From the NCBI GenBank assembly GCA_021234155.1, contig JAJEKV010000035.1, forward strand, positions 11,470,407 through 11,534,406: DNA of 64,000 bases, read 5' to 3'. The notes beneath the pieces are model-generated. The model was not told the DNA's origin. It did not search any database and saw only the letters and a program-made list of their open reading frames with translations. The position numbers were made by a program, and so were the translations under genes. Shown in pieces: positions 1 through 39,465 of the stretch. The stretch is from Isoetes taiwanensis (Eukaryota > Streptophyta > Lycopodiopsida > Isoetales > Isoetaceae). The number at the start of each line of letters is the position of its first letter. The first letter of the stretch is position 1.

Positions 1-2371
1 ATGGACAACTTCTTCTTAATTCTGGTCACTATGGGTTCCCATATCCCCTGCAAAGAACTATTAATTGACAAAGGAATTCCCAGGATAGTTGTGGCAGAAT
101 TGGAGCTCAACACTTTGATCCCTTGTAGCATTGTATCTTGTGAGTCATAGATTATGGCACTCTTGTTTTTGTTTAGTCTGACTCCTGCAGCATCACCAAA
201 TTCATCCATAGTTGACAGAAAGTTTTCCAGACTCTTATCTTCTTTATCCAAAAATACAAAAGTATCGTCTGCATATTGCATCATAGTGAAGGGACCTTTA
301 TTATCTGGTAGCTGAAGGCTCTTTATATCCCCCTCAATTTGCATTTGTATTGCTTTCCTTGTTACCATCTCAGCCACAATGAGGAACAGGTAAGGGGCCA
401 ATGGGCATCCCTGTCTAACCCCTCTTTGACATTTGAACAGCTTGGTAGGTGTGCCATTGATAATTAATGCTGATGCTGAATTTACATTGAAGCTCCAAAC
501 CTTTTGATAGACATTGCTTGGAAGTCCAATATGTGTCATAGCTTTCTCTAAGAACTGCCAGCTTATTGTATCATATGCCCTTTTGAAATCCAACTTGAGC
601 AACATACAGTTTTGTCCTGATCTTTTATTCCAATGCAAACCTTCAAAGCCAGCCTCAATATAATTTTCCATTATATTCCTCTCGAGGTAAAAAGCTGATT
701 AAGCGGGGATTAATTGTTGAGTGTAGAAACATTTTTAACTGCTTGCCAATATCTTAGCTAAGACTTTGTAGCTTGTGTTTGTTAAAGAAATCGGTCTCAG
801 TCCCCAATCCCTTTTTTGGACAATCCACCTTTGGAATAAGTGTAATGTGTCCAAATTTTATGGCTGGATTGAGGCTATTGGCTTTCCAAGAGCCTTGGAA
901 AAAGGTTATCAAATCCTCTTTCATTATTTCCCAAAATTCCACATAGAATTCGGGCTGAATCCATCCGGTCCGGGCTTTTCCCAAAGCAGCCATAGATTTT
1001 AAAGTCTCCCAAATTTCTTTCTCCGGGAACCGCTAAGAGCTCATCATCCTTTAACACCTCCTTAGCTTTAGGAATATTCTCGAAGAAATTATCAATCACT
1101 TTTTCAGTACTTGGTAATTCCGAACATCTTCCTATATTCATCATGGAAAAAACCTTCTATTTCCTTTTGATCTTCAATGACTTTCCCACTGTCATCATTT
1201 ACCTTCACAATACCATTATTCAGGATTCTACTTTTTGCTGCCCTGAAAAAGAAAGCAGAGCCTCCATTATCCATACCATTGATGTATTTACATCTACTCC
1301 TTACTGCCAGTGATTTAGCCTCTCTCTCTTCAATTGCCTTTACCTTTATCTCAAGCTCCTCCTCTTCTTGCTGTGCCAGTTTGTTGTTCTTATCCTGAAA
1401 AAGTTTCCTTCTTATTTCACTGATCTTGAGATAAATCTCACATTTCTCCTTCCTCTTCTCTTTATACCATTCTCTGCCCCATCTCTTAATCCAGCCCTTG
1501 AATTCCCTCAGCCTAATGGTGAATGCTTTCATTGACTCAGTTTTTGGTAGAGGAGGCAAGGAGCTATAAAAGATCTTGAATTCATCACAAAATCTCTTGC
1601 ATTTCAACAGTTCTGTGTTGAATTTAAATGGGATGTTCTGACCACCCTTACATGCCACCATTTTGTCATCCAAGTATTGTGGGATGTGATCGTAAAATAG
1701 AATTCCCTATGTCTCCAAAGAACAACCACATTATCCCAAAGTGGAGCGAGATTTATTGCAAATATAGAATCTATCCAAAGAAAGCAAGATGTTCTATCAT
1801 CTCCCTTTCTCTTATTACTCCAGAATAAGTTTGAGATGAAGATGGGGATATACACACACTTTCGGTCATCGAGAAATCCCAAGCAAAGCAGATTCCTTTT
1901 TAGACATATTCAATTTCTTCCTAACTTTTGATCCCATTGTGGTGTGTTATTAAAGTCACCTGCTATCAAGTAATTCTCCATTTGATTGCCAACTATCCAT
2001 TGTCTCATTTGAGTCCATTGATCAGCCCTTTCATTTGGTTCAGTGGATGCATAGACATTGAAAATTCCCAATTTTTCTCGCTCCTTTCTCTAAGAGCGAC
2101 TACACCATCTCCCCGAGCTATGTGTGAATTTCTCGACAAAGAACCAAAACCTTTCCAAACCATACAAATACCTCCCTTTGTCCCATCAGCTTGGGCATAT
2201 ACAGAGTCTCCATTGGGAATGATCCAAGACCCCAAGTGTTGGGACTCAAAACTTGGAAGTCTATGTTCAGAATGTAATAATGTCGGCTTTCATCTCCTTA
2301 AGAGCTATGAGTGCTCTCTTTCTTTTAAGGGGCCCTTTATCCCCCCTCATATTCCAAGTGATTATCCTCAT
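1..2371 (-). pseudogene. LINE ORF2: endonuclease plus reverse transcriptase, broken
   Basis: ORF2 begins at 2371 with an N-terminus MRIITWNMRG typical of LINE apurinic-endonuclease domains, which nick the target DNA. A stop follows within about 25 codons. Endonuclease-like coding resumes at 2235-2005 and 1882-1604, a linker follows at 1673-1104, and the fingers region (SLNPAIKFGHITLIPKV) is at 993-754 in a shifted frame. The palm with LLKLDFKRAYDTISW lies near 600-545 and YADD near 270. Several frameshifts and stops make this a pseudogene. The window ends before the thumb and C-terminal region. Confidence 0.85.
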
Positions 2372-3822
2372 TGAGCGGGGCACTTAGTTCTAGCCCGAGA
2401 CCTTAAGTTAAAGGTCAATACAATGAGAACCCGAACCTTTTTATTGCATTTTTTGATCATAGGAGTGTAGAATACCTCAAGATCATCCTTTTTGGCAATC
2501 GACCCCTCATTCTTATACTCAATTGGGTTTATTGGGTTTGATCCCAGACCATTTGATATCTTAGACAGCACTACCTGGCCATCTAGACTTATTAGTCCAC
2601 TGGATTTCTCCAATCCTAGGCTAGATGGTGTTATAGGCCTGTGCTCATCATGGTGTACTTCACCCTGGCCTTTGACAGGACTTATAGGAGTTAAAGTAGA
2701 GTCCATCACATTTGAATCATCTTCCTGATCAAATCTTTCTCCTTCCCTCTCAGTATCTATGGGCGGATCTTCCATTGGGGATCTTGTATAGAATTTAAAC
2801 TTGTTTTCATACACTGTGTTTGCTGGAGTTAAGAACTCAGTTGGGGTGGCAGGGACTCTCTCCCCATTTTCAATCTCTTGTTCTCTCTCCATTATGTCCA
2901 AGAGGATATCTCCCATATCAAGGCTCTGTGTAATTTTTCCAGGAGTGGAAAAATTAATGCTTTTAGGAGTTACTTCTTCATGAATTTTAGAACCCTCTCC
3001 TTTGAGTAGAAGTGTACCCCCTGTGGAAAGATCTGAGTCAGAAGACTCAGGATATGTATTGACTGGAGGAAAATCAGATTCCTGAATAGTAAGGGTATTT
3101 TTCCTGAACTGATGGGCAGGTGTGACCACCATCTCCTTCTGTTCCAGGCAGATTACATCTTTTCCTTTATCCCCTTTCTGGATCAATCCTTCAGTAGGGC
3201 TTAATAAGTCTTTGGATTCCTCCAATCCTTGGCCTACTGGTTTGTTGAGGACCTTGACATGACATGCCAATTTTATATTTTTTTCTTTCTCCTTCCATTG
3301 TTTCCTCACAGCTTTATCATTGTTTTTTTGTTTCTGCTGTTCCATATTTTTTGATCTTGCTTTATCCTTTCTTGCTTTTTTGTAGGCACTACCATTTTTG
3401 TGTTGCCTTCTTTTTTTGGTTCCTGGAGTCCAAATTTCCTCTCTTTGTGCTATTCCTTCCACTTTTCCAAGAGTACCATTAATAATCTTTTGTTCACATC
3501 CTTCCTGAGTCTTCCTTGTGTTAGAATTAGATGGATCAGAGCTGAATTGCTTAGTTCCTTTGCATACTCCCCCTCCATGAAGTCTCAAACCACAGACATT
3601 ACAGGGGCTTGGGAGACCTTGCCAATTTACCTTAAGGCTCTTCTGATCCCCAAAGAAATCTTGGTATTGGACAGAGGATGGGATCGGGTTCAAAATATTC
3701 AATTGGATCCAAACCTTAGGAGCCCTTTCAGGAACTGATTCCCATCCTATGTATTCTCCAATTGAGGAGAATAGCCTCCTAAAAATCTCCTCGTGCCAGT
3801 AGATTGGGCTAAGGCCCTGCAC
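2368..3822 (-). CDS. LINE ORF1 (gag-like, zinc knuckle)
   Basis: This 484-codon open frame encodes the RNA-binding ORF1 product of the L1-type LINE. A CX2CX4HX4C zinc knuckle (CNVCGLRLHGGGVC) lies about residues 78-91. The following 400 residues are hydrophilic and rich in Lys, Glu, Ser and Thr, as in plant LINE ORF1 proteins. The true start is probably upstream, because conserved-looking sequence continues to about 3835 before an in-frame TAA. The stop codon TGA (2370-2368) overlaps the ORF2 start ATG (2371-2369) in an ATGA arrangement, which suits termination-reinitiation. It is uninterrupted, in contrast to the broken ORF2. Confidence 0.8.
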   Translation of the reverse strand: MQGLSPIYWHEEIFRRLFSSIGEYIGWESVPERAPKVWIQLNILNPIPSSVQYQDFFGDQKSLKVNWQGLPSPCNVCGLRLHGGGVCKGTKQFSSDPSNSNTRKTQEGCEQKIINGTLGKVEGIAQREEIWTPGTKKRRQHKNGSAYKKARKDKARSKNMEQQKQKNNDKAVRKQWKEKEKNIKLACHVKVLNKPVGQGLEESKDLLSPTEGLIQKGDKGKDVICLEQKEMVVTPAHQFRKNTLTIQESDFPPVNTYPESSDSDLSTGGTLLLKGEGSKIHEEVTPKSINFSTPGKITQSLDMGDILLDIMEREQEIENGERVPATPTEFLTPANTVYENKFKFYTRSPMEDPPIDTEREGERFDQEDDSNVMDSTLTPISPVKGQGEVHHDEHRPITPSSLGLEKSSGLISLDGQVVLSKISNGLGSNPINPIEYKNEGSIAKKDDLEVFYTPMIKKCNKKVRVLIVLTFNLRSRARTKCPAQ

Positions 3823-16875: not shown

Positions 16876-17068
16876 TTGGAGACCAAGAGCAAAGCACTGA
16901 CCATGCTCCCAGTAGTACTAACTTGATAGGATCCTTAAACCTCGAAAAAAAATGGAATTTTTTTTTTCTCATTTTTGTAGTTTATGCTAAGCTAGTAACA
17001 GTTAAAATGAATGAAAACATAAAAAAAAAGACTAAAAATTGGTGAGCCAACCTTCAAAAAGTAGGATG

Positions 17069-17135
17069 GTCTCACACGTCGCGCCAGGACAGATAATGAG
17101 AATCTCATTTTCGGGCTGGGCGCAACGTGTGAGAC
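17069..17135. promoter_or_regulatory. Long hairpin, promoter module 1, copy a
   Basis: The left arm starts GTCTCACACGTCGCGCC and the right arm ends GGGCGCAACGTGTGAGAC, separated by a near-palindromic AATGAG/CTCATT core. The whole 67 bp can fold back on itself and has ACGT cores near both ends. The same sequence recurs at 17265, 27684 and 27884. Confidence 0.85.
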
Positions 17136-17264
17136 ATTCAGCTTGAAACACACTAAAAAGTTATAAATCGCAGAAAAATAACTTGATAATTCTAAATTTG
17201 GGCTAAGAAGAATTGGCAGGTTATAGGCTTAGAAAGTATAAAATTTAGCAGCGGGACCCACCAT

Positions 17265-17526: not shown

Positions 17527-18365
17527 ATGGCCCGGACAAAGGCATCTAGGGAAGCCCCACAGGCTTAATCCTCAGCGCCCATGATCCCCGCCACTCGTGA
17601 GGATACTCCAAGAACGCCTTTTCCTAAAGGCGAATCTTCATCCGTTGAGGAGAGGTACTTCGGACCGGAGCAGCGGGGCCGAGGAGGTCATAGGGGAGGA
17701 AGCGGATGTTATGCACAGATCCTTGAAGAAATGGCGAGGAGGAAAAAAGGTTGAGCAAAGAGGAACGGGAGGCGAAGGGACACCCGACCGTCCAGGAACA
17801 ATTCAAAGCTTGGGCCCGTCTGCGGGAAGTCAGGAGAGAGGCAGCGGCTTCCGCCTGAAGAAGAAGACCCTCGCATTCATCGGCAAGTATGAAGCCAAAA
17901 GCACCGCCGAGAGAGGAGGACAAAGAAATCCGGAGGACGACCCAACCACCAGTAGAAGCGAGCGAAGAGGAAGAGGGCCAAAGGCATTAAGGCGGGCAAG
18001 AGAACAGTTGTGAAGGTTGGTAAGCGAGCGGAAGGTACCGTCATCAATGAGCCATCAGGCGAGCAGACCCCGCCTTCTACCGGATTTAATTCGGACGAAG
18101 ATTACGTCCCCAACACTGAGGGGGCAAGCTCTTCAAAAACCCGTCGTGGAAGGAAGTGCCCGAGTAGGTGGCAATCGAAAGGAGGCGCCCGGCAGCGCCG
18201 GTTCCCACCATTCGGCGTGGGATAGGGTCAAAGCCCCGGCCACCACAACGGAGGGCGACGTGATAGACCCAGGTCGAGGTCTATCAAAAGAAGATCAGGG
18301 AGCACAACGCCTACATGGCGAAGTGGGAGGCATACAACGCTTATTACCAAGAGCACAGGGTAAGA
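17527..18365 (+). pseudogene. H3/CENH3-like gene, 5' part (tail region)
   Basis: The gene starts ATG at 17527 with MARTKASREAPQA, resembling the MARTK start of histone H3 and CENH3. An in-frame TAA follows at 17566. The coding then continues in alternating frames (frame of 17527 to about 17750, another to about 17985 containing LSKEEREAKGHPTVQEQFKA, back again at 17990-18222 with STGFNSDEDYVPNTEGASSS, and the last from about 18288 with KIREHNAYMAKWEAYNAYYQ). The composition is Lys/Arg/Glu-rich throughout, a very long tail for an H3-type protein (about 270 codons). Frame changes may be indels or unrecognised short introns. E1 interrupts the gene at 18365. Confidence 0.6.
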
Positions 18366-19125
18366 AACAAAGTTTAAAATGAAACGCACTTATTTGCTGG
18401 AAACGCACTTCAAAAGGAATCTTTGAAAGATTCCCTAAAATTCCCATAAAAAAGTCCATTTTAAAAGATTTTTTTTTTGTGACGTGTGACAATTTAAGTA
18501 ATTTAGGTACCATTTTTGAGGGGTTGATTGAACATAACTTTAACCCTGCAAAAATTTTAAATAGCAATTTTCATCCTCCTAAACTAGAACAAAAATAGTT
18601 ACTTTTATAAAGTGTAGCAAAAAAAAGGCAATAAAAAAAATAGCAAGGGTAGTAGAGTGACAAAGAAGTGATATATTCAAGGTTGTGAAAATTGTACAAA
18701 ATTATGAACAAAATTGTCAAAAAATATAGGATATTTTGACAGACAATCATCACACACACTTTACATTCTTTACATGTTCGAGTCATCGGACAAACTTACA
18801 TTTTGCAACAAGATCGGGATGCATCTCATCCTCACGACTCATTTATTCCACGATCACTCGAGCCTTCATCCTCGGCTTCACTCTCGGCCTTTGGATGTAC
18901 TCGAGCGATCTTCTTCCTCACTTGTCTACAAGTGAGTCTTCATCATCATCTTTTTGGCCACCTTTTTGGCTTGTTTGTCTAATCCACATCTTTGACCTTA
19001 TTAAAGTTTGAGTGACCATACGTAACTTATTAGCGGCGGTCGAACAAAGTCATATGCAAGAACCTTTACTTGATTAGATCTATGGCCGGTGCTTGCTTTG
19101 GACTTAGCTCTCTTTCCCCTCTGTT

Positions 19126-21310
19126 TTACCATCTCAAAGTATAACTCCCACTTTGAAAGCATTGGCGGCCGATCGTTCTCATCCGATGCACTTTTAATTG
19201 AGTGGGAATTCCATCCTCTCTTGTTACCTCGATTACTTTAGCTAGCGGGAATGGCCTCAGTTCATCATTATCGGTTGGGACAGCTATGAGCATTCCTTTA
19301 CGAATCTCCGGTGAACCAGGATACTCGAGCAACTTGTTGTCTTTGTCGTCTAGGGCGGTGTACATGACTCTGTCATCTTCATCTGAGCTAGCCAATATCT
19401 CTACATGTTCCTCTTGATTCTCAACGCACGGGGAGGGTTTGCCTAGATGGCGGTTGAATGTAATTCTGTCTTCGACCTTGTAATGAAGCTTGCAACATGT
19501 CACGTTGCCGAAAAAATTGAGGCCACCATAAAGCATCTGCCTCCCCAAAGTGGTTAGAAGCGGGGATTTGAATACTTGTCTCAATACAATCCAATGATTT
19601 ATTTGAGTCAAATGCTCTTCCCTCCTTTTTTTACTCTTTGTGATTTCTTTCAAGCTTTTTAGAGGCATTTGCTCTCTGCAGAGCATGGAACTAGTATTGG
19701 GGATGTTGAATGAATTGAATACACTGCTGCTTTACTTTGCAAGGATGTGGCATATTTCTTTCCTTGTAAGATGGCCTTGCCATCTACAAGTGAAAATTAC
19801 AATCGATCTTTGAAATGTAATGTTTCTCAATGGCTCAATAGCCACGGTGACCTAGTTGATCTCTCAGAAAAATCCATTCCTTGAAATCATAAGTTTCTTC
19901 CAATAACTTCGATGTGCGGGCCGAGGATTGTAGGAATCTTGGATGACCTCAATCATGGCTGGCGGGCTTAGAGCTTTTTTCGAGCAAGGCGTTTAGAGAA
20001 CCTCTTGAACATCGATCAATTTGGTGGGTGTGTATGACCAACAAGCGGAAACCAATCTTCACCTTCTTGAAGATTTGTTTCTCTACTAACATAACCGATA
20101 AAGCAAACAACGCTGATTCTTATTTTCCCTTGTCGTGTTATCTAGTCGAAGATCTGAGAACCGCGGTATATGTTCTAGATTGGAAAGAAGCTTATTCAAT
20201 ATTGTGATAGTGAGATTTGGATCAGCATGAATGTTTGGATAATTCAAAATGCCTTGCAAGATAGTTTTCCATTAAATACCATAGCACCAACAACATGCGG
20301 ATGTATGAAATCTTCTTCGGCATCCTTAGGCACATTGACAAAATGTGGTAGGGTGGTCTTCTTCGGTCCATTCCATCAATAACAAGCGATATGTAGTTGA
20401 GTGGTTGTTCGATGCTTTCTTCCTATGTTTTGTCAATTTTCTCCTTTCCAAAGATTGTTGTTCTCGTGCTTGTTCGGTTTCTCCTTCAATGCATCCGAAA
20501 GGAAAACATGTTTAGGAAAGAACCTACTTTTAAGTAGAACTAGGCAAGAACACGTCACGGAAGCTTACTTTTAGTGTGAAGTGTCCTTGCATTTTGTCTC
20601 GAGCTTTTAATTCAGGCATGTAGCACAAAGACATCCTATGCTTTCTAGGAATGGCCTTGAGAAAACTCTTTTTCGAGCACGGTAAAGTAAGAGTAGCGGA
20701 CAAAAGCGTTCTCCGGCCTCAACACACATCTCCTTATAATTATCGTTAGACTTCTTGTTTTAGGTGAAATTGTCACTCAAGTGGTACATAGGGCTGTTAG
20801 GGAGTTTCTCACAAGACTCCTTAAAGAAACCTTCCATCCGGAAACACATTGAAGAGCATGAATTCTGGTTATGCCTCACGAATGGCGGTAGTCATTGATG
20901 CACGGATTCTTGTCAAGCCTTTTCTTGGCGGTCAAATTAAGTCTGCTGCCTAAAGCATGAATCAATTTGAAGGCCCGTTTGGCCGGCGGTGTGGCCACCA
21001 GTACATGTAAAGTAAACTTCTCACCATCATCGGCCTAATATTGAAGGCTAAGTAGCCCCTTTGGTCTAGCGAGTCATTGAGCTGTAACTATCACGAAGCA
21101 ACCTCAATTCCTTTAGTCAATCTTAAGCAAACAACGTTGAGAACAACGATTAACTTTGTATGTGTTGCCCCATGGGTGAGCCTAGTCCATGAGTTTCTTT
21201 CTTCTAACGGTTGTACATGCTTTGTGTTGTGTAAGTTAAAGCTTAAGATTTTTACTTGCGGGGGGCTTTGAATTGAACATGGAGTCTTGTGGCTTTGGTA
21301 GGTCCTCGTC
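19126..21310 (-). pseudogene. E1 transposase (DUF7869-like DDE family), decayed
   Basis: Read across frames on the minus strand, this region gives the landmarks of the family also seen at 13.1-15.3 kb: SLVIDGMDRRRPP (about 20395-20350, first acidic motif), LVEKQIFKKVKIGF followed by VGHTH and QID (about 20095-20010, third block), and at the C-terminus an open stretch 19686-19126 with PGSPEIRKGMLIAV and ELRPFPLAKVIEVT, the accessory domain. A sequence near 20730-20770 aligns roughly with the middle part. There are many stops and frameshifts, so it cannot make protein. It is presumed to have mobilised E1 because it lies between matching ends, oriented towards the left end. Confidence 0.6.
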
Positions 21311-21319
21311 ACGAGACAT

Positions 21320-21900
21320 CAACATGAGGTGTTTCTTAGTCATGCGAGAGATCAACATGAGGTGTACTTGTAGATCTTTGAGAGGTTTGATGTGGGCAAG
21401 GCACGGGGGGAGGTGCTTTCCCTCTCTGGGAAAAAGTAATTGAGGCTGGTGGCGTAGTTGACCAGCTCTGAAGTGTCGTAGAACACGGGGAGTTGCGTGT
21501 CGTTGACTGCTCCCACTTGTTGTAGTACCATTTAGCGAAATGGATGGAGTTGGTGTGATTTGCCTCCGGAGGGGGAGCCTACGGTGGACTATGGGCTGCG
21601 TACTAAAATGAAGTGGAGGAGGTAGTCACGACCTCTCTAGCGAGGTGGGGTGAAACGCATTGGTGGGGGCGGCGGCGTTCGGGGAGGCGAGGGGTGTGGT
21701 GGAGTAAATTGAACTGGTGGTGGAAGCGAGGTGGTCTTCTTTGGAGTAAACTCAGCGAGCCGGGTGTTGGAATGTCGGATGTAGAATATTAAGTGGCTAC
21801 TTCACGGTGTGCTGTTGAGGAGGTGAAAAAGCCATTGCGGGGAGGAAGCTACAACGAGCGAGGAGTTGGAGGCTCTGCGGTTCTTTTCTCTCGAGCCATA
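21320..21900. other. E1 intergenic segment, GC-rich, no gene seen
   Basis: Tryptophan/Gly-rich in several frames but without a convincing reading frame. It lies between the decayed transposase and the first palindrome cluster and probably holds the 5' region of the transposase gene. Confidence 0.3.
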
Positions 21901-22036
21901 CGGTATAAATTTATCTGAGTTGGTATAAATTTATCTGAGGAAAAAAACTTAAAGCGGCGGTATAAATTTATCTGAGGAGATGGTATAAATTTATCTGAGG
22001 AGGAAAACAACATAGAACAGGCGGTATAAATTTATC
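21901..22036. repeat. E1 palindrome cluster A (5 units)
   Basis: Five copies of [C/T]GGTATAAATTTAT followed by CTGAG or CACG. The left half matches the full palindrome, while the right half has TCTGAG in place of TACCG, so these are half-degenerate versions. Confidence 0.95.
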
Positions 22037-22300
22037 ACGAAAACTCCACGGACACTTGTATTGAAAACTTTATGGGCTATATGAAGGCGCCGCGGAGGTA
22101 CTTAAGCGGTGCCGGCCACCCTATTTTCTATATATCACGGCCTTTCGGTCGAAGGGCTCATGGTCGCGGCTTATATACCCCCTTATTTGCTCTGGGAGCG
22201 TCTATCACGTGGGTCTATATTGTCATGGCCACGTAAGTCTACTACCCCCTCTTGTTCTAGTTTCTCTTTTGTTTTAATCTGCTAGAGTGTGTAAAGCCCG

Positions 22301-22732
22301 CGGTATAAATTTATACCGATATGGTTCTGGATCGGTATAAATTTATACACGCTTCGAGCATGGCGGTATAAATTTATACCGTTCGAACACGATCGGTATA
22401 AATTTATCTGCCGATATAGTTACTGGATCGGTATAAATTTATCTGCCAGTATGTTTCGGCGGTATAAATTTATCTGGATTCGAACACGATCGGTATAAAT
22501 TTATACCGCTTCGAGCACCTCTTGGTATAAATTTATACCGGCAGATTGCCGGAACGGTATAAATTTATACGGCTCAGCACCTAGCGGTATAAATTTATAC
22601 CGGTGATGTTCTGAAGCGGTATAAATTTATACCGCTTCGAGCACTGCGGTATAAATTTATACCGATCGTGTTCTGGTTGCGGATAAATTTATACCGCTTC
22701 GTTAGAGCGGTATAAATTTATACCGATCGAAA
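22301..22732. repeat. E1 palindrome cluster B (14 units, ~31-bp period)
   Basis: Fourteen units with starts near 22301, 22333, 22364, 22394, 22429, 22460, 22490, 22524, 22555, 22585, 22617, 22647, 22680 and 22708. The consensus CGGTATAAATTTATACCG is a perfect 18-bp palindrome; three units end TCTG instead. Mean spacing is about 31 bp, close to three helical turns. The 11-17 bp spacers alternate between related types (CTTCGAGCAC-like and GAACACGAT/GTGTTCTGGAT-like). It sits just upstream of the ParB/methyltransferase-like gene. Confidence 0.95.
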
Positions 22733-23337
22733 CCATTTTGGAATCTTGGTGTCTAGTGCTTAAAGAAGTGTCGCAAAACCTTAATATTTTTATTAATATT
22801 CTTGCGTTTTTAAGCTTAAATAACACAAATAAAGTGATAATTTAGTGTAGATTTTATGCTCTTTTAAGCCTCTATTTTCTTGTTTTATGTTACAAAAGGT
22901 CGAAAAAGGTTACGTTTCTTGCATAAAATGGCCTTCTTTGCGCTTTTTCCAGCCCCAAGATCAGGTTTGTAAACAAGGGCCGATCATCAAAGGCGCACCA
23001 ATAGAGCCACGGACATCTGGCCCGAAGACCCGGGCGTGGTGCGTCCCGGGGGTGCAAGAGAGCAAACCCACTGGAGGCGTACCTTTACTTGTGTCATCAA
23101 TCGGGGAAGGGCAAGTACAAGACCCGACGATTATTACCTGCCCGCCCGAAATTGTCAACCTTATTGCTCTGAGAGGTCGATGATGAAATCTTAATGAAGT
23201 GCATGCATGACAAGGGGGAAGTCTTCTACGTTCTTGAAAGTAAAATGCTTCGAATAAGCATGTGCAAACCCAAAGATGTGCATGAGTACGTGGCTGACAA
23301 TTACAAGAGTGGCCATGTAAGTATTGTTTAGTGTCTT

Positions 23338-23358
23338 TACGTATAAATTTATACCGTC
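23338..23358. repeat. Single E1 palindrome
   Basis: One copy, CGTATAAATTTATACCG, lies in a probable intron of the decayed methyltransferase gene. Confidence 0.9.
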
Positions 23359-24393
23359 ATCTTCCTAACTTAACCCTGTATTACAGGATATAGTGGACAT
23401 TTTGATGTCGGTTGTGCTTTCTTGAAGAAACAAAAGTTGGTCAAAGGTCCACGTGGTACCCCTCCTAACGAAGAGAGTTTGAAGAGAAAGGAAGAGGAAG
23501 TAGAAGACCAGTGGTAACAAAGGGAAAGGGTAGAAAGCATTCCCTGGTAGTAGATACACAGGCTCCTACAAAAAAGAAATCTAGAGGCACAAAGTCTTTG
23601 ACTATAGAGGAGTCAACAGAAGCTCTTCAGAAGGCTCCTGGAGCAGATATTGTTGTGAAGCCTGCAGATAAATCAAGTGCTATTCTCAAGCGGGTGAATG
23701 ACACTAAACTGCTAAAGCAAACTATTTCTTTGACATTGAGCACCATTAAGAGGCCACCTAAAAATGAAGATGGGGTCAGAGTGCTACAGGTCCGGTCGAG
23801 TATCGGCACATGTGGCTATCTTGAAACAAAGAATGAGAAGAAATCCTCATGCCCATGTGTAAGCCACTAGTTGTTATGGTGGGCCGAGTCGGTGCAACCA
23901 ACTAAAAGATTACAAGAAGGTGACTTGAAGATTACACATACTACGTTCTTGGAGGCACACATAGTTACAAGGCAAGGAAAAGAACTAGCAAAAGAGGAAA
24001 GCCGTAGCGAAGTGTGGAAGAGCGTTGAAACACATATATACGTTGGTGTAACGGATGAAGAAGCAAAAGTCATTGCCGTGAGTCATAATCTCGACAATGA
24101 CTTGGATTAAAATGAGTTTAATAGACAAGATCCGTTTCATGCAACCGTGAGTGCGTTGGAATTTAAACAAATGTATGGAGAGGATTTTAAAAAGCAAAAG
24201 AACAAGCTGCGGGAGCTTGAGAAGCCTGGCGTGTGAGTCTTTGCCTCCGGCTATGACTATGATAAGAAGCCCATTATGGCGGTAAAACAATGTCGATAAC
24301 TACTTTCAGGTGGCATTGAGAGATGGTCAAGTAAGTAAATGCTCTTCTTTCTATGTTTTGTAGTATGTTTAAGCGTGGTTACAAGTGCCTTAT

Positions 24394-24721
24394 GCGGTAT
24401 AAATTTATCTGCGTGGCCAGCGATTATAAATTTATACGCGACTAGTCGCGGTATAAATTTATCACGCGAACTTACGGTATAAATTTATCTGCGCGACTAG
24501 TCACGGTATAAATTTATCACGGGTAGCGGTATAAATTTATCCATCTAATCATATATAAATTTATACCGTTGCCTAGTCGTGTATAAATTTATCACGTGGT
24601 AGGACACGGTATAAATTTATCACCGAATATAAATTTATCACCGTGCGGTATATAAATTTATCTGCTGACTAGGCACGCGGTATAAATTTATACCACTAGG
24701 GACGGTATAAATTTATCGTGA
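24394..24721. repeat. E1 palindrome cluster C (13 units)
   Basis: Thirteen units of the TATAAATTTAT core, spaced 19-31 bp (starts from 24395 to 24703). Right halves vary: CTG, CACG, CACC, ACCG and CGTG. Spacers repeatedly contain GACTAGTCGCG or CTAGTC/GACTAGG, themselves partly palindromic. The cluster separates coding segments of the ParB/methyltransferase-like gene. Confidence 0.95.
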
Positions 24722-25792
24722 CTACACACCATCGCGTGTTAGAAAGTAGGCGTACAACATATTCTCTTCACGCTAAGCAACACTAAACTAATGGCGTTTG
24801 TCCATTTCACGGTGTGGGATCTTCAAGAAAGAATTTTTTGTATGTTCAAAGATGGTGAGCTTAAAAGAGCAAGCCAGCTCCTCAAAAAACCAAAAAGGGT
24901 GGAGAATTAAAACGAGAAAAATATGAGCATTGTACCACGGGCCTTGATTCTGAGGGATTAAAAAGCAAAGAAATTTTTGTTAAGCCTTTTGGAAAAAGTC
25001 GTGGCCAAGGAATTTACATTAGGCGAAATGGCCAAGGAAGCTAAGGCGTAAGCCACATTTGCAATGCCGGTGTTTCTTCTACATTTTCTGGTCTTACAAC
25101 ATGTTTCTCTTTGCGGTCGAGAAAGACATTGTCACCGCCGGGCCGAGTTAATGAAGCGGCTAAACCTAGAGGACGGGAGGGAGTGCAAGCTTCTCTACCC
25201 AAGTTGTACCAGCGATAGTATCATTAGAAACCTTGTTGTTAACTTTAGTGGTGGGTAAGTTTTGCTAAAAATATGTTACGTGTTTGTGCCTTTTTCTCAC
25301 AATATTCTTCTGAGAACAAGAAAAAGGGGCTCCCATTTGGATTTTTAAACCTGGTTCGTAGGGCCAAGGAAGAGAGGCGAGACTTAAGGCAATCGAGCAG
25401 GGAAAGGAGGTCGCCACTAGCGGCTTTGACACTTCTTATGAAAGATTTACAACGTTTGGTCGAATTTTGCATGTCTGAGAGTTGTTGAGGGTGACCGCAC
25501 GAGGCTGGGGACACTTTTGGAGAAGCGAGAACTTCACATTATGCATTGCGGATATTCCCTATGGTTTCAAAATTAAGGACGGTAGCTTTTGGCGAGGAGG
25601 CTTTCCGCGCGTGCAAGTCCACTCTTTTTGGAAGGCTGAAGGAAGTCACCTTATCTGCTAGCGGAGGGTCATCATTTTCCATTCGGACCTACAAACAATG
25701 TCGGTGCTTAAACCTATGGGGTATGCATAATCTGCCGGCTTTGAAAACGCATTTGGTAAGCAACATTTAACGCTTTTCTTTTTAGTAACTCC

Positions 25793-25932
25793 ACGGTATA
25801 AATTTATACCACAACCGCCCTAAGGTTTAAATTTATATATAGCAAGGCAATGTCTATATAAATTTATACGACTGCGGCCCAGCGGTATAAATTTATCTGC
25901 TTAAAGGCAACCCCCAGTATAAATTTATCCGC
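25793..25932. repeat. E1 palindrome cluster D (5 units)
   Basis: Five degenerate copies (near 25795, 25832, 25855, 25882, 25917). It lies between the motif IV segment and the motif I segment of the decayed methyltransferase. Confidence 0.9.
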
Positions 25933-26420
25933 CACACCTCTTGAGCTAACTTATTTTCCTTGTTTTATTTTACTAATATTTCATTGTTGTCTTTGTTTGG
26001 CGGGCTTAAAACAAACGTTAAGGGTCATGGTGGTGGTCCGCACTTAGTAAGTTGTTTGAGCATTTTCACATAGGGTTTTACAAATAGCGACGCCAAAAAA
26101 CCATGGTTCACTTTAATGTGAGAATGAAAAGACTCCTCCACGCAATGCGTTTCAGTTTCGGCGGTTTTGCAAAAATTAAGAGACCCACGGCGACAAGGCG
26201 TGGGTGTCCCATTATCGAAACCCCGGCGACTTATTAATAATTTGATCTGATGGTTTTCGCCACAGGGACCGGATCTTAGGCGCATTTTCTCGCTCGAGCA
26301 CCACCAGTTTTATGCCCTTAAGCGAGCAATGTTGTCTCCGTCGACATAGACCCGGACAAAATAAGTTTCATCGGGACCGGGATAAGCTCTTGTGAATCCT
26401 TTCACGATGAAAACGAGGAA

Positions 26421-27060
26421 TTGGGAGCAAAAAATGGTCTTTGGCGATGTAAAGGCACATATCTGAGAAATCCAGCCTCCACTTACGGGAAGAAGAAATG
26501 AGGAGGTGGAGTTCGTCGATCACGGAGCCCTGTGGTGCACGAGCCGAAGAAACACTGCACTGTACCATTGGAATCGAAGGGGCGTCTACGCTATTATAAC
26601 CTCGCAAAGAGACCGATCCTAAGGGGAGAGAGAGTCCTGTGGACTGGGAAGAGCCACCTCCCGTATAAATTTATACAGACAGCATTTTAAACTATCTTTC
26701 ATTGTAATCTATGTGCTATGAATTTCAATATATTTTGATGAAGATTTCTCAACTGAAAACTTTGTCTCTTCAACAATGCTTAATTAGAACAATTCTTTTT
26801 TTGATTCATGATTTCAGACTCTTTCTCTTTTCTATGTTTGATTTTCTTAGTACTTATATTAAGCTTGCAAAAACACAAAACTATATTTCCTTCTATTTTC
26901 AACAACAAATACTTAATGAGTTTTTAAATGTAATGTCTCTCTCCTCAAAACAAGCTTTTTTTTTTTTTGCCCTTCTTAAAAAATGAAAAGGCTTCAAAAA
27001 TGTTGCTTTTTTTGGGGTATTTCGAATGCTATTTGCTCAACAATCTATTTTGCTCCCTAT
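26421..27060. other. E1 right-hand region, last palindrome and AT-rich DNA
   Basis: The end of the decayed coding region may reach about 26650 (EFVDHGALWCTS-like text). One further palindrome, CCGTATAAATTTATACAG, is at 26660-26677. The remainder is AT-rich and leads into the right terminal repeat. Confidence 0.5.
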
Positions 27061-27153
27061 TTTGTCCATTTTTTTCAAGTTTCCAATTTTTATAAAGGAA
27101 TCTTTCAAACGCACTTCTTAAATAAGTGCGTTTCATTTTAAACCTTGTTAAGA

Positions 27154-27537
27154 ACCATTGAAGGTGGAGTACCCCCGAAAAAGACTCTGAAGCCGCCACC
27201 ACCGAAGCCCAAGCCTCCCAGAGCACCAGGGAAGAAGCGGACCAACAGCAAGCAGAAGGAGCAGAGAGCCCTCAAGGAAATCCGGCACTTCTAGCGAAGT
27301 TACGGACTCTTGATCCCCCGGGCACCGTTTCAACGTTTGGTCCGAGAGGTTATGCAAGAGTATAACACAGACATGCGGGTGACCGACGAAATGTTGCTGT
27401 GCCTACAGGAGGCAGCAGAGGCAAAACTGGTGCAGCACTTTGAAGATTCGACGGCCTGCACAGTTCACGCGAAGAGGGTCACGCTCATGAGGCAGGATAT
27501 GCATTTGGCTAGACACATCAAGGGAGAACGCCCTTGA
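27154..27537 (+). pseudogene. H3/CENH3-like histone fold, 3' part
   Basis: Resuming in the same frame after E1, this segment has a Lys/Pro-rich stretch (27172-27250), then RALKEIRHF, a TAG at 27292 where H3 and CENH3 have Gln, then [18 protein letters not shown] (alpha-1), [20 protein letters not shown] (alpha-2) and [20 protein letters not shown] (loop 2, alpha-3), ending TGA at 27535. It is a complete H3 fold. KEIRHF, LLIP and RVTLMR look like plant CENH3, but loop 1 has the canonical H3 length rather than the CENH3 insertion. Histone H3 packages DNA with H4; CENH3 marks centromeres. Which of these applies is unknown. The TAG plus the E1 insertion make it inactive here. Confidence 0.85.
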
Positions 27538-27683
27538 ACTTCTTGTAAATAATGGAAATTTTTGTTAATATAAAGAAATTTTGAGTAAATAATGTGTTTA
27601 TTAATCTTGCTTAATTAGGTTAAGATATCGATTTCTGGCTTTTATTTTGGTCAAATTGGACATTTTGAGCAAAATTGAGACGA

Positions 27684-27752
27684 TATCTCACACGTCGCGC
27701 CAGGACAGAAAATGAATTTTTCATTTTCGGGCTGGGCGCAACGTGTGAGACC
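27684..27752. promoter_or_regulatory. Long hairpin, promoter module 2, copy a
   Basis: Starts TCTCACACGTCGCGCC and ends GGGCGCAACGTGTGAGAC. The centre GAAAATGAATTTTTCATTTTC is itself a near-perfect inverted repeat. It is nearly identical to the copy at 17069. Confidence 0.9.
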
Positions 27753-27883
27753 ATGCCCAAATATGCCCAAAACAGCTCCAAATTGACCAAATAAGGGGTC
27801 AATTCTGCCTAACTCGACGAGTCCAGTAAGATTAGACCCTTAGATCACCCAAATTGATCGAGCTTAGCCCATTTAGAGCCCAT

Positions 27884-27950
27884 GTCTCACACGTCGCGCC
27901 AGGGCAGAAAATGAATTTTTTATTATCGGTCTGGGCGCAACGTGTGAGAC
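27884..27950. promoter_or_regulatory. Long hairpin, promoter module 2, copy b
   Basis: Same hairpin with GTCTCACACGTCGCGCC and GGGCGCAACGTGTGAGAC arms. It begins 200 bp after copy a; the pair upstream of the H3-like gene is 196 bp apart. Confidence 0.9.
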
Positions 27951-28125
27951 CTCGCAGCTTTTTCTTCACCATGATCCAGTTATTGCAATAGGTCCTTTAG
28001 TTGTTAGTAGCCTACTCAAACCCTAAAAGTAGTCTTCAAATTCTCAATTACACCTCTTAACAGGTCAGAATCGCCCAATTCCAGTAAATTCTAGGTTATC
28101 CAAAAACTAGGGTTTTCCCTTTTTC

Positions 28126-34884: not shown

Positions 34885-34912
34885 TCAAATTGAGGCATTT
34901 GTTATTGAAAAG

Positions 34913-35433
34913 AAGTGAAAGAAAAAATCAGTGGATAGGCTGGTAAATAGTAGCAGAGATATGAGCAGTGAGAGAGAGCTGTAAGAATGTGGTATATGTG
35001 AAATTGGCGTAGCCGGTAGCAAATCGGAAAGAACCAGTTCCACCGGCAATAGCCAGTTCACTAACGCCACCAGTTCAATTGTATCTCTGCCCAGCATAAT
35101 AAGCTGGCCTTTCAGACCCTTATGTTCATACAAAACTGTGAAATAGTAAGTTGAACTTGTAGTCGCCACATCTGTCACTGCCACGATCCCCTGTGCTCTT
35201 CCCAATATTTTAGAAGTCTGATTGTTGGGGCCATCTGTGATCTTATCATCAAACACAAAAATTGTGCCAAACTGAGCCTTGCTCACATCGTTGTTTGGCC
35301 CTGCTACAATCTCATTCGAGGTATTGGGCGCTCCACCCATGAAATAAAATTCAAGGTGTGTAAACTTGGCCTGGCATCCTAATGCTAACATAGCTAGGAA
35401 AACGAAACAGATGCCATATTTGAAGCTCGCCAT
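34913..35433 (-). pseudogene. Dirigent protein gene A, one-base deletion
   Basis: Dirigent proteins are extracellular beta-barrels that steer the stereochemistry of phenoxy-radical coupling (lignans, related phenolics). This copy begins MASFKYGICFVFLAMLALGC, a signal peptide cleaved about residue 22, followed by the barrel with EFYFMGGAPNTSNE, FGTIFVFDDKIT and RAQGIVAVTD. Compared with gene C it has lost one base near 35075 (CAGTTCAATT against CAGTTCCAATT), so after GRDTI the frame shifts and the predicted protein ends with an unrelated hydrophobic tail. Read in the other frame, the missing end (FRFATGYANFTYTTF, then QPIH and a stop near 34913) is intact, so the mutation is recent or an assembly error. 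A TATA box (CTATATAAG, minus strand) is at 35533-35525. Confidence 0.85.
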
Positions 35434-36790
35434 TTTGCTTCAGAGATTCGCTCAAAGGAATAGTTGAGGTGATGAATAGCAAGGTCTTAGGTGATTTGAT
35501 GAGAAATACAAAGGAGCTTGGGCCCTTATATAGAGTTTATATTTGCAGTAGTTTGAATTCTTCAAACTCTGCATTAAGTTATTAGCTCATGTTGCGTATC
35601 GATTTGAAATTGGCTGTTTCATCCATCCGCGTGAGTCCTGTGCTCTTTTGTCCGAAGTTTTGAATTTGTTCTGGTGGACTTTGTTGGCGTAAGATTTTTG
35701 ACCAGGATCATATATTTGGTACTTAAGAAGACGACAAGTAAGTATGTGGGACATGCTTAATCTTTAGTCTTCTGTTCAGAAACAACCTTTTCATACCCTT
35801 TGCATAGAAAGAGAAATTATTTCATGTCAGAGTGATCAACTTGTCTTCGTCCTCTTTTGACGGTCCCAAATTTGTCCTAGATTTGTCAACTTGTTGGGTA
35901 AGAACTTCCACCAAGATATATTTACCAGAAGTATGTGGGACATATTTTCCAGTTTATTCTTACAAGGGACAAAAGGATCAAGATCAAAGCACGTTGTTTT
36001 GCTGTTGGGGAAGAACTTTGAAATAAATATTTCAAGGAATTTCTAACCTTTGCATAAAAATCAGTTTCTAAGTAGTTCATTTCTGAATTCGGTGTGCATG
36101 CATGCCCAAGTCCAAGAGACCATCTGGCCCATCTGAGTGCATTTACAGAATCAGTGGTTCATTCCCAGAATCAATGGTTCAATTTGTTCTGCTACCTCTC
36201 TCATTCTCTTACTCGATATACTAATCATGTTTTTACCTGTCTGGCTATCGAATTGATTGACCTACAGATGAAAATCAAGTTACTGTATCTAGTCCTCTCA
36301 AGATCTGTCACTAATTATCTCATGTCATAAACAAAACATAGGACCTTATTCCTTACTAGGACATATCGACCTTAATCATAGTACTTTCTATTGTCTGAGA
36401 TGTTGTCCAGGTTGTAACAAGCAGCTGATCTTAGCTGTACTATATTCTTTATGCTTGTAAGATGGTTGTAAGCTTTAATTGCCTTTTTGCTTTAGATTCA
36501 ACATCACACTATAATAATAAAAATGGGTAGCTCTAACACCAAGGATAATGCTATCCTTGCATAGTGCTCAAGGTTCGGCAGTTTCTATTATTAATGTACC
36601 CCTATGGTGAACAAATCTGCTGGTCCAGAAGCATCTCTGCCCTGCTCTGCAATACTTGGGTAAATTGCAGGTGTGATGCAATGAAGAGACTTGTATTATA
36701 AAGTTTATAACATAAACATTCCTAAACAGAACACACACAGATTCTTCAAGTAAAACAGGTATAATTAGTTATAGTTTTCCAAAATCAAGC
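35434..36790. other. Intergenic DNA between dirigent genes A and B
   Basis: Holds the gene A promoter (TATA at about 35529) and AT-rich DNA with nothing else recognised. Confidence 0.5.
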
Positions 36791-38871: not shown

Positions 38872-39378
38872 TCAATGCATAGGCTGGTAGATGGTAGCAG
38901 AGACATAAGCAGTGAGGGAGAGCTGTAAGAATGTGGTATATGTGAAATTGGCATATCCTGAAGCAAATCTGAAATCGCCAGTTCCTCCAGCAATAGCCAA
39001 TTCACTAACTCCGCCAGTTCCAATTGTATCTCTGCCCAACAAAATCAGTTGCCCTTTGAGACCATTATGATCATACAGAACAGTGAAATAGTAAGTAGAG
39101 CTGGTAGTGGCAACATCTGTCACTGCCACAATGCCTTGTGCTCTGCCCAAAATTTTGGAGGTCTGATTGTTGGGGCCGTCTGTGATTTTATCATCAAACA
39201 CAAAAATTGTGCCAAATTGAGCCTTGCTCACATCGTTGTTTGGCCCAGCAACAATCTCATTCGAAGTGTTTGGAGCTCCTCCCATAAAATAGAACTCAAG
39301 ATTTGTAAATTTGGCCTGGCATTCTAATGCAAACAGAGCTAGGAAAATGAAGCAGATTCCATATTTGAAGCTTGCCAT
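38872..39378 (-). CDS. Dirigent family protein C, intact
   Basis: This single-exon gene encodes 168 residues, a normal length for the family. The signal peptide is MASFKYGICFIFLALFALEC, cleaved about residue 22 before KFTNLEFYF. The barrel has the conserved order EFYFMGGAPNTSN, FGTIFVFDDKITDG, RAQGIVAVTDVATTSSTYYF, YDHNGLKGQLILLGRD, SELAIAGGTGDFRFASGYAN, and ends TIYQPMH. There are potential N-glycosylation sites (NNQT, NFTY). The product should be secreted to the cell wall and direct phenolic radical coupling; the substrate cannot be told. A TATA box (GTATATAAG, minus strand) is at 39465-39457, about 80 bp before the ATG. Members A, B and D downstream on the same strand show a tandem expansion. 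Confidence 0.92.
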   Translation of the reverse strand: MASFKYGICFIFLALFALECQAKFTNLEFYFMGGAPNTSNEIVAGPNNDVSKAQFGTIFVFDDKITDGPNNQTSKILGRAQGIVAVTDVATTSSTYYFTVLYDHNGLKGQLILLGRDTIGTGGVSELAIAGGTGDFRFASGYANFTYTTFLQLSLTAYVSATIYQPMH

Positions 39379-39465
39379 TTTGCTTCAGAAGTTCAGAGAC
39401 AAGGAATATTAACTTGATGAGGAGCAACTCGGGGATTTGATGAGAAATTTGGGTGCTTATATACA

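Follow-up and report, generated by a model that had tools for sequence, protein, structure and literature searches.

Transposons that encode a ParB-like DNA methyltransferase have been described in algae. The brown alga Ectocarpus carries Sola1-1_Ec32, a 21.5-kb element that encodes a transposase and, on the opposite strand, a ParB-like/N4C/N6A methyltransferase; its authors suggest that such ParB-methyltransferase proteins bind and modify their own transposon (PMC12477816). In Arabidopsis, the VANC proteins of VANDAL elements bind to arrayed motifs within introns and other non-coding sequence; these arrays turn over, and the targets change with the protein (PMC5735166, PMC10398659). The KDZ (Kyakuja-Dileera-Zisupton) elements make target-site duplications of 7-8 bp (PMC12730594), retrotransposons of dinoflagellates and charophytes carry cytosine methyltransferases (PMC5890265), and the bdelloid rotifer N4CMT is a host gene that takes part in transposon silencing (PMC8885841). 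Here, we describe a transposon of the land plant Isoetes taiwanensis, located at positions 18366-27149 of a 64,000-nt stretch of DNA (assembly GCA_021234155.1, contig JAJEKV010000035.1:11,470,407-11,534,406, forward strand), hereafter the window. We identify it as a dead member of a large family of cut-and-paste DNA transposons. The element holds a transposase gene, a ParB-like/DNA methyltransferase gene, and arrays of a short palindrome that differ in sequence between families and are retained in copies with decayed genes. All genome-wide counts and searches refer to the 1.66 Gb assembly of this species.

The element is delimited by 30-bp terminal inverted repeats, 97% complementary, at 18366-18395 (plus strand, beginning AACAAAGTTT) and 27120-27149 (minus strand), recognized by repeat comparison and in the family copies. 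A 4-bp target-site duplication, AAGA, read by eye, lies on both sides (18362-18365 and 27150-27153). The first-pass annotation, made from the letters of the window, had placed both genes within one pair of terminal repeats, and its boundaries proved exact. Twelve further copies of the window family, picked from 40 listed with an intact left end and 40 listed with the plus-strand gene, are 8555-8944 bp long; the resulting 13 copies share 91-95% pairwise identity, and all retain both ends and are flanked by 4-bp duplications of their own (the latter read by eye). The Sola1 superfamily makes duplications of 4 bp, and we take the window element to be compatible with Sola1, judged by duplication length (13/13 copies). 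Membership in KDZ was rejected, given 4 bp in every copy against 7-8 bp in KDZ; the comparison with these elements made in the first-pass annotation survives as an analogy, namely a DNA transposon associated with a DNA-modifying enzyme. The left (18366-18695) and right (26820-27149) terminal 330 bp are near-invariant among the 13 copies, with a mean pairwise difference of 0.005 each, against ~7% for the interior. Conservation of the left end is partly built in, as copies were selected among the best left-end matches, while the right end was not used in selection. Near-identical ends around a diverged interior suggest that copies with decayed genes have spread in trans.

Stops and frameshifts cut the two genes alike in the window copy. 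The transposase remnant spans approximately 19126-21625 on the minus strand, as judged from open reading frames (ORFs) and relatives. A piece of it at 20086-20271 matches DUF7869 (PF25273) with 29.7 bits against a curated cut-off of 26 (E 6e-7), and the other eight window pieces gave no convincing family in the same Pfam search. The motifs IDGMD (20366-20380, confirmed by a frame check of the window copy) and VGHTH (20028-20042, intact in relatives as FLLVGHTHDQIDQMFSRFS) are both present, as had been noticed in the first pass; IDGMD, LDN, and VGHTHDQID are common to the families wherever the fetched pieces cover those sites. The long transposase frame of the relatives is absent from all 13 window-family copies, the longest frame being 397 aa (L012) against 784 aa in L021, a member of a diverged set of elements termed group B. 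Relatives match DUF7869 at 1.5e-51 (group B) and 1.9e-51. Between families, the transposase is ~50% identical in the longer alignments. A literature search for the name DUF7869 returned no paper with that word.

On the plus strand, the ParB-like/DNA methyltransferase remnant extends approximately from 22880 to 26640, with limits and predicted introns derived from ORFs and relatives. The encoded protein runs from a variable N-terminal domain through a ParB/sulfiredoxin-like domain to a permuted amino-methyltransferase. One predicted intron, gtaagt...ttacag, is read in the sequence at 23317-23386 and contains a single palindrome (23339-23356). The ParB/sulfiredoxin-like domain (23720-24330), placed by relatives and profiles, is broken in the window copy and contains VGVTDEEAKVIAVSHN at 24042-24089. 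Motif IV, IADIPYG (25545-25565), agrees with the frame and with relatives and, like VGVTDEEAKVIAVSHN, had been picked out before any relative was available; both match the same gene in better-preserved copies. The string FATGTGS (26256-26276), also proposed as a methyltransferase motif, turned out to be out of frame. The relatives' frame, from 26246, reads SDGFRHRDRILGAFSRSSTT in the window copy, so the true motif I is FSRSSTT at 26285-26305, a decayed form of the family majority FSGSGTT. Motif IV (IADIPYGF, VADLPYGF; DLPYG/DIPYG) thus precedes motif I (DAFSGSGTT), i.e., the permuted, beta-class order. A relative's methyltransferase matches the N6_N4_Mtase profile (PF01555) at 2.8e-17, and its nearest solved sequences are CcrM (1.6e-9), MboIIA, and RsrI. 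From these matches, we regard the methyltransferase identity as secure; the D-x-P-Y motif and the kinship with adenine enzymes only suggest N6-adenine activity. Relatives in phages amount to 105 records, all below 60% identity, and the 15 listed are 26-28% identical over half the query. The ParB-like assignment is likely: the phrog_1033 ParB profile matches at the same place in the protein in three families (3.2e-6, 1.1e-3, and 0.016), and TIGR03764, a ParB model of NCBIfam, in one of the three (0.008). The two genes are evidently no chance ORFs, because group-B relatives match DUF7869 (1.5e-51) and N6_N4_Mtase (2.8e-17) and the window piece itself matches DUF7869. Profiles of the relatives thereby agree with the first-pass claim that one element carries both genes.

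The pairing recurs well beyond the window. Pieces of the plus-strand gene were found in the window copy and in 12/12 further copies of its family. Among the 150 scored hits listed out of 1444 first-look candidates for PF01555 and the 150 listed out of 9907 for PF25273, there are 24 gene pairs within 15 kb, 22 of them divergent, and 17 of the 22 have a spacing of 4.9-6.2 kb; six shifted controls gave 1, 1, 0, 0, 1, and 0 pairs. Nine pairs (L013-L021) were fetched and constitute group B. Its members are 74-93% identical to each other; for eight of the nine, alignment to the window family is limited to 0.5-0.7 kb at 68-70% identity, and L014 has no match. Group-B ends start with AACA and are accompanied by 4-bp duplications in five of the nine elements by script and in a sixth (L016) by eye, and the left end was not recognized in the remaining three. 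Better-preserved relatives, which the first-pass annotation had asked for, thus place the plus-strand gene outside this one copy, and capture in the window copy alone is ruled out by the 12 further copies and by the recurrence in diverged families.

Selection points in the same direction for both genes. Within group B, six pairs were compared at the methyltransferase exon: five have a nonsynonymous divergence (dN) of 0.03-0.05 and a synonymous divergence (dS) of 1.4-2.2, hence a dN/dS of 0.014-0.030, and one is saturated. One transposase pair has a dN/dS of 0.088, and the other measurable pairs lie at 0.078-0.18, the methyltransferase pair between group B and family D marking the upper value (0.18). 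The ParB domain compared between window-type subfamilies has a dN of 0.05 with saturated dS, and most between-group pairs are likewise saturated and hence yield no ratio. On the sequence evidence, both genes have been maintained by purifying selection. The fastest-changing part of the ParB-methyltransferase is the N-terminal domain, with 20-29% identity between families (L022:2564-2992 and homologous parts), and the ParB part is mostly 46-68% identical; this pace makes the N-terminal domain a candidate determinant of specificity or a candidate means of evading the host.

The palindromes share a 10-bp core, ATAAATTTAT, present in exact form 26-39 times per window-family element; 19 of 20 shuffles of the window copy contained none, and one contained a single core. 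In the window copy, a core scan places them between the divergent genes, between coding parts of the methyltransferase gene (predicted introns), and near the end of that gene. Array 1 (21901-22039, five cores) and array 2 (22301-22725, 14 cores of the CGGTATAAATTTATACCG type) lie between the genes; array 3 (24395-24720, 13 cores) falls in the stretch that separates the ParB from the motif-IV coding part, and array 4 (25794-25932, four exact cores and one degenerate) in the one that separates motif IV from motif I, both stretches being predicted introns. A single palindrome sits near the 3' end of the gene (26661-26678). The window copy has no palindromes in its transposase half or in the terminal 330 bp, and across the 13 copies, element positions 400-3400 contain neither an exact nor a one-mismatch core. 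Neighboring sites follow each other at ~31 bp in array 2 and, in families B and C, mostly at 41-42 bp and 40-41 bp, respectively, close to three or four helical turns. Because the copies are related rather than independent, these spacings are given without P values.

This layout persists while the palindrome changes. Group B carries AAAGTGTATTCCGGAATACACTTT instead, each element having 7-16 sites, mainly in the two places where the window family has its own. We surveyed 28 hand-picked pieces upstream of other DUF7869 hits, taken over differing profile ranges (13 of 4 kb and 15 of 1.6 kb). The palindromic hexamer within TAT-N6-ATA was AAATTT in 11 pieces, TCCGGA in four, GCGCGC in four, and GAATTC in two, by a scoring devised after the top palindromes were already known and with some calls resting on 2-3 exact sites; minor second hexamers, with 1-2 sites each, occur in L005, L017, L022, and L023. 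By this tally, there are four families with one frame, TAT-N6-ATA, and four centers, AAATTT, TCCGGA, GCGCGC, and GAATTC. In the GCGCGC and GAATTC families, sites again fall between the genes and in the methyltransferase gene, with a few elsewhere in the GCGCGC family, and two methyltransferase hits (C1037:14962111 and C1059:1168217) have GAATTC-type sites at similar distances. The exact words occur in the genome 4415 (18 bp, family A), 1925 (20 bp, B), 1551 (14 bp, C), and 64 (14 bp, D) times; read backwards, they occur 0, 0, 0, and 11 times, respectively. The palindromes are not merely TATA boxes, a reading rejected because families B and C have a similar layout with TCCGGA and GCGCGC centers. 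One surveyed piece, L047, contains at 675-1100, upstream of its DUF7869 hit, a duplicated block rich in GCATGCATGC (four copies), which may represent another type of palindrome or simple repeat DNA.

Arrays placed between divergent genes and in the predicted introns of the methyltransferase gene itself would also suit a hemimethylation switch, whereby methylation of the palindromes couples transposition, or transcription of the enzyme's own gene, to replication, and the arrays act as operators that limit copy number rather than counter silencing. Dam methylation plays this replication-coupling role for IS10 and IS50 in bacteria. The cores are symmetric, as the logic of hemimethylation requires, and CcrM, the nearest solved relative by sequence, works in the bacterial cell cycle. 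However, palindromes are absent from the conserved 330 bp at each end of the window copy, which is where the transposase would act, and 26-39 sites exceed what an operator needs. We consider such a switch unlikely.

The palindromes have outlasted the genes around them. In many window-family copies, gene matches are split into several frames, although single exons can stay open (e.g., ParB in L006). Over the 13 copies, 435/459 recognizable array cores are exact (95%), 18 have one mismatch, and six have two. For random 10-mers, the share of copies in which they are intact is 76%, 76%, 67%, and 56% in four internal regions and 99% in the left terminal 330 bp. Measured by alignment, the per-site difference is 0.004-0.033 in the 10-bp core, 0.044 on average in a 12-bp core, 0.005 in both terminal 330 bp, and 0.31 in the spacers, the last contrast being inflated because repeats align to repeats. 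The spacers of arrays 2 and 3, at ~31% difference (with the same inflation) against 4-8% in most gene parts, make the arrays seem to turn over quickly.

Gene-decayed copies that retain ends and palindromes are likewise what one would expect if the palindromes were cis sites for transposition, i.e., internal transposase sites or transposition enhancers, with the ParB-methyltransferase doing another job, such as protecting excised DNA or tethering. The transposase, too, diverges between families (~50% identity in longer alignments). Such sites are harder to reconcile with window-family arrays lying around and inside the methyltransferase gene while positions 400-3400 of the transposase half are core-free in 13 copies, and the family hexamers resemble sites of type II methyltransferases; we hold this explanation improbable. 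At the far end of the range, the methyltransferase gene could be a passenger without a role and the arrays ordinary satellite-like repeats. Captured genes are common in transposons, and the array spacers do change fast, but low dN/dS across large synonymous divergence, a pairing and layout that recur across families, and motif retention far above that of the surrounding DNA make a passenger very improbable.

We propose instead that the ParB-methyltransferase binds and marks its own element, keeping it open against silencing much as VANC proteins do without an enzyme, here with a DNA-modifying enzyme in the place of VANC, a reading to which we give about an even chance. It is put forward because palindromes and ends are kept in decayed copies and because VANC proteins do a similar job. 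The transposase would presumably read the ends, and a sequence-specific protein of symmetric habit the palindromes, at places where silencing could start. The ParB-methyltransferase is the candidate reader because the sites surround its gene and the hexamers resemble methyltransferase targets; type II restriction-modification systems are known to recognize GAATTC, TCCGGA, and GCGCGC. The protein may bind the palindromes cooperatively as dimers and methylate them, most likely on adenine. Marking would then cover the regulatory DNA and introns of the element, which might stay open despite host silencing. Any copy with ends and an array, even with broken genes, would remain mobilizable in trans, and a family that switched its palindrome would acquire a protein acting on that family alone. 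Action of this protein on the palindromes, already raised in the first pass as possible methylation, masking from silencing, or copy-number control, fits with family-specific palindromes in a shared frame being kept in gene-decayed copies. A more specific version is a modular self/non-self mark: the ParB-guided methyltransferase would write N6-methyladenine (or N4-methylcytosine) at the family hexamer in TAT-NNNNNN-ATA, protecting its own family from silencing, and families would speciate by hexamer switch, like bacterial restriction-modification specificities. We offer this version tentatively, as possible and somewhat doubtful.

Several observations weigh against self-marking by this protein. 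(i) As to the sites, the full 18-bp form CGGTATAAATTTATACCG is exact at only 7 of 38 window cores, with flanks departing mostly on the right; array 3, in an intron, has a spacing of ~28 bp, no whole number of helical turns; some sites lie outside the main places, near the transposase 3' end, in L013, L016, and family C; and seven of the 28 survey pieces (L024, L031, L043, L046, L047, L049, and L052) have no palindrome type in the TAT-6-ATA test. (ii) The ParB-like domain has no significant ParB match in Pfam, where unrelated families score equally or better for some pieces; PDB searches with the ParB piece or its profile led to no relative, the profile reaching sulfiredoxin at no better than E 1.3, ranked below unrelated proteins, and the ParB region of L013 matches a family of unknown function slightly better (0.012) than ParB (0.016). 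(iii) The N-terminal domain varies even within one palindrome type (43-84% identity) and thus does not simply track the motif. (iv) The count of exact cores is independent of the inflation by repeat alignment, yet blind to wholly lost sites, and core retention could partly be a product of array turnover. Finally, the protein that reads the palindromes might be the transposase or a host factor.

The surroundings of the element were inspected as well. Of the flanks examined (18300-18365 and 27150-27200), the left one looks coding by eye (EHNAYMAKWEAYNAYYQEHR), so the window element may lie in a gene or repeat that predates it. Outside the element, there are three copies of a hairpin-like unit of 72-82 bp (TCTCACACGTCGCGCCAGGACAG...CGCAACGTGTGAGA), at 17056-17137, 27683-27754, and 27882-27963; the units match one another in direct and inverted orientation and may derive from an older element that was the target of the present insertion. 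Farther away, two dirigent-like ORFs (PF03018) lie on the minus strand at 34885-35439 (E 1.3e-16) and 38872-39384 (E 2.3e-27), in keeping with a land-plant source.

Among known systems, Sola1-1_Ec32 is alike in pairing a transposase with a ParB-like/methyltransferase gene on the opposite strand, a comparison made by description. It differs in being a 21.5-kb element of a brown alga, whereas the Isoetes elements are ~9 kb, reside in a land plant, and bear family-specific palindrome arrays; the available part of the account mentions no such arrays (PMC12477816). Within a literature covered by titles and the beginnings of abstracts, with subscription papers mostly outside, only that paper describes such a gene in a transposon. 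A ParB-methyltransferase in a transposon, together with the idea that it binds and modifies its own element, is therefore of a kind already known from algae (PMC12477816). As far as that literature goes, three features appear to be new: the occurrence of many such elements in a land plant, the use of a common frame for palindromes that are specific to each family, and the survival of these palindromes in decayed copies. KDZ and other fungal transposons with TET/JBP genes are similar in joining a DNA transposon to a DNA-modifying enzyme, and the enzyme differs (PMC12730594). The retrotransposons of dinoflagellates and charophytes also carry their own DNA methyltransferase; they differ in being retrotransposons with C5 enzymes, and palindrome arrays are not mentioned in the portion available (PMC5890265). 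Bdelloid N4CMT is another permuted, bacterial-type N6_N4_MTase (PF01555) in a eukaryote with a link to transposons, but it is a host gene and not a transposon gene (PMC8885841).

Whether N6-methyladenine or N4-methylcytosine is real in land-plant DNA, and what role it has, is disputed. In the Isoetes lineage, the sites are exactly defined, as palindromes numbering in the thousands, a candidate for the writer is under selection, and the presence of four palindrome types in a single genome provides internal controls. The likeness to VANC covers several features: the elements encode the protein family themselves, short motifs specific to each family are repeated in introns and other non-coding DNA, the arrays turn over fast, and the motif changes from one family to the next. 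Like VANDALs, the Isoetes elements carry family-specific motif arrays in their own non-coding DNA. In contrast, the second gene here is a methyltransferase, the transposase belongs to DUF7869, the motifs are symmetric palindromes, and the target-site duplication is 4 bp. VANDALs, as MULEs, duplicate ~9 bp of target. If such marks are real, a selfish element would be using a bacterial-type DNA mark against plant silencing, convergent with VANC.

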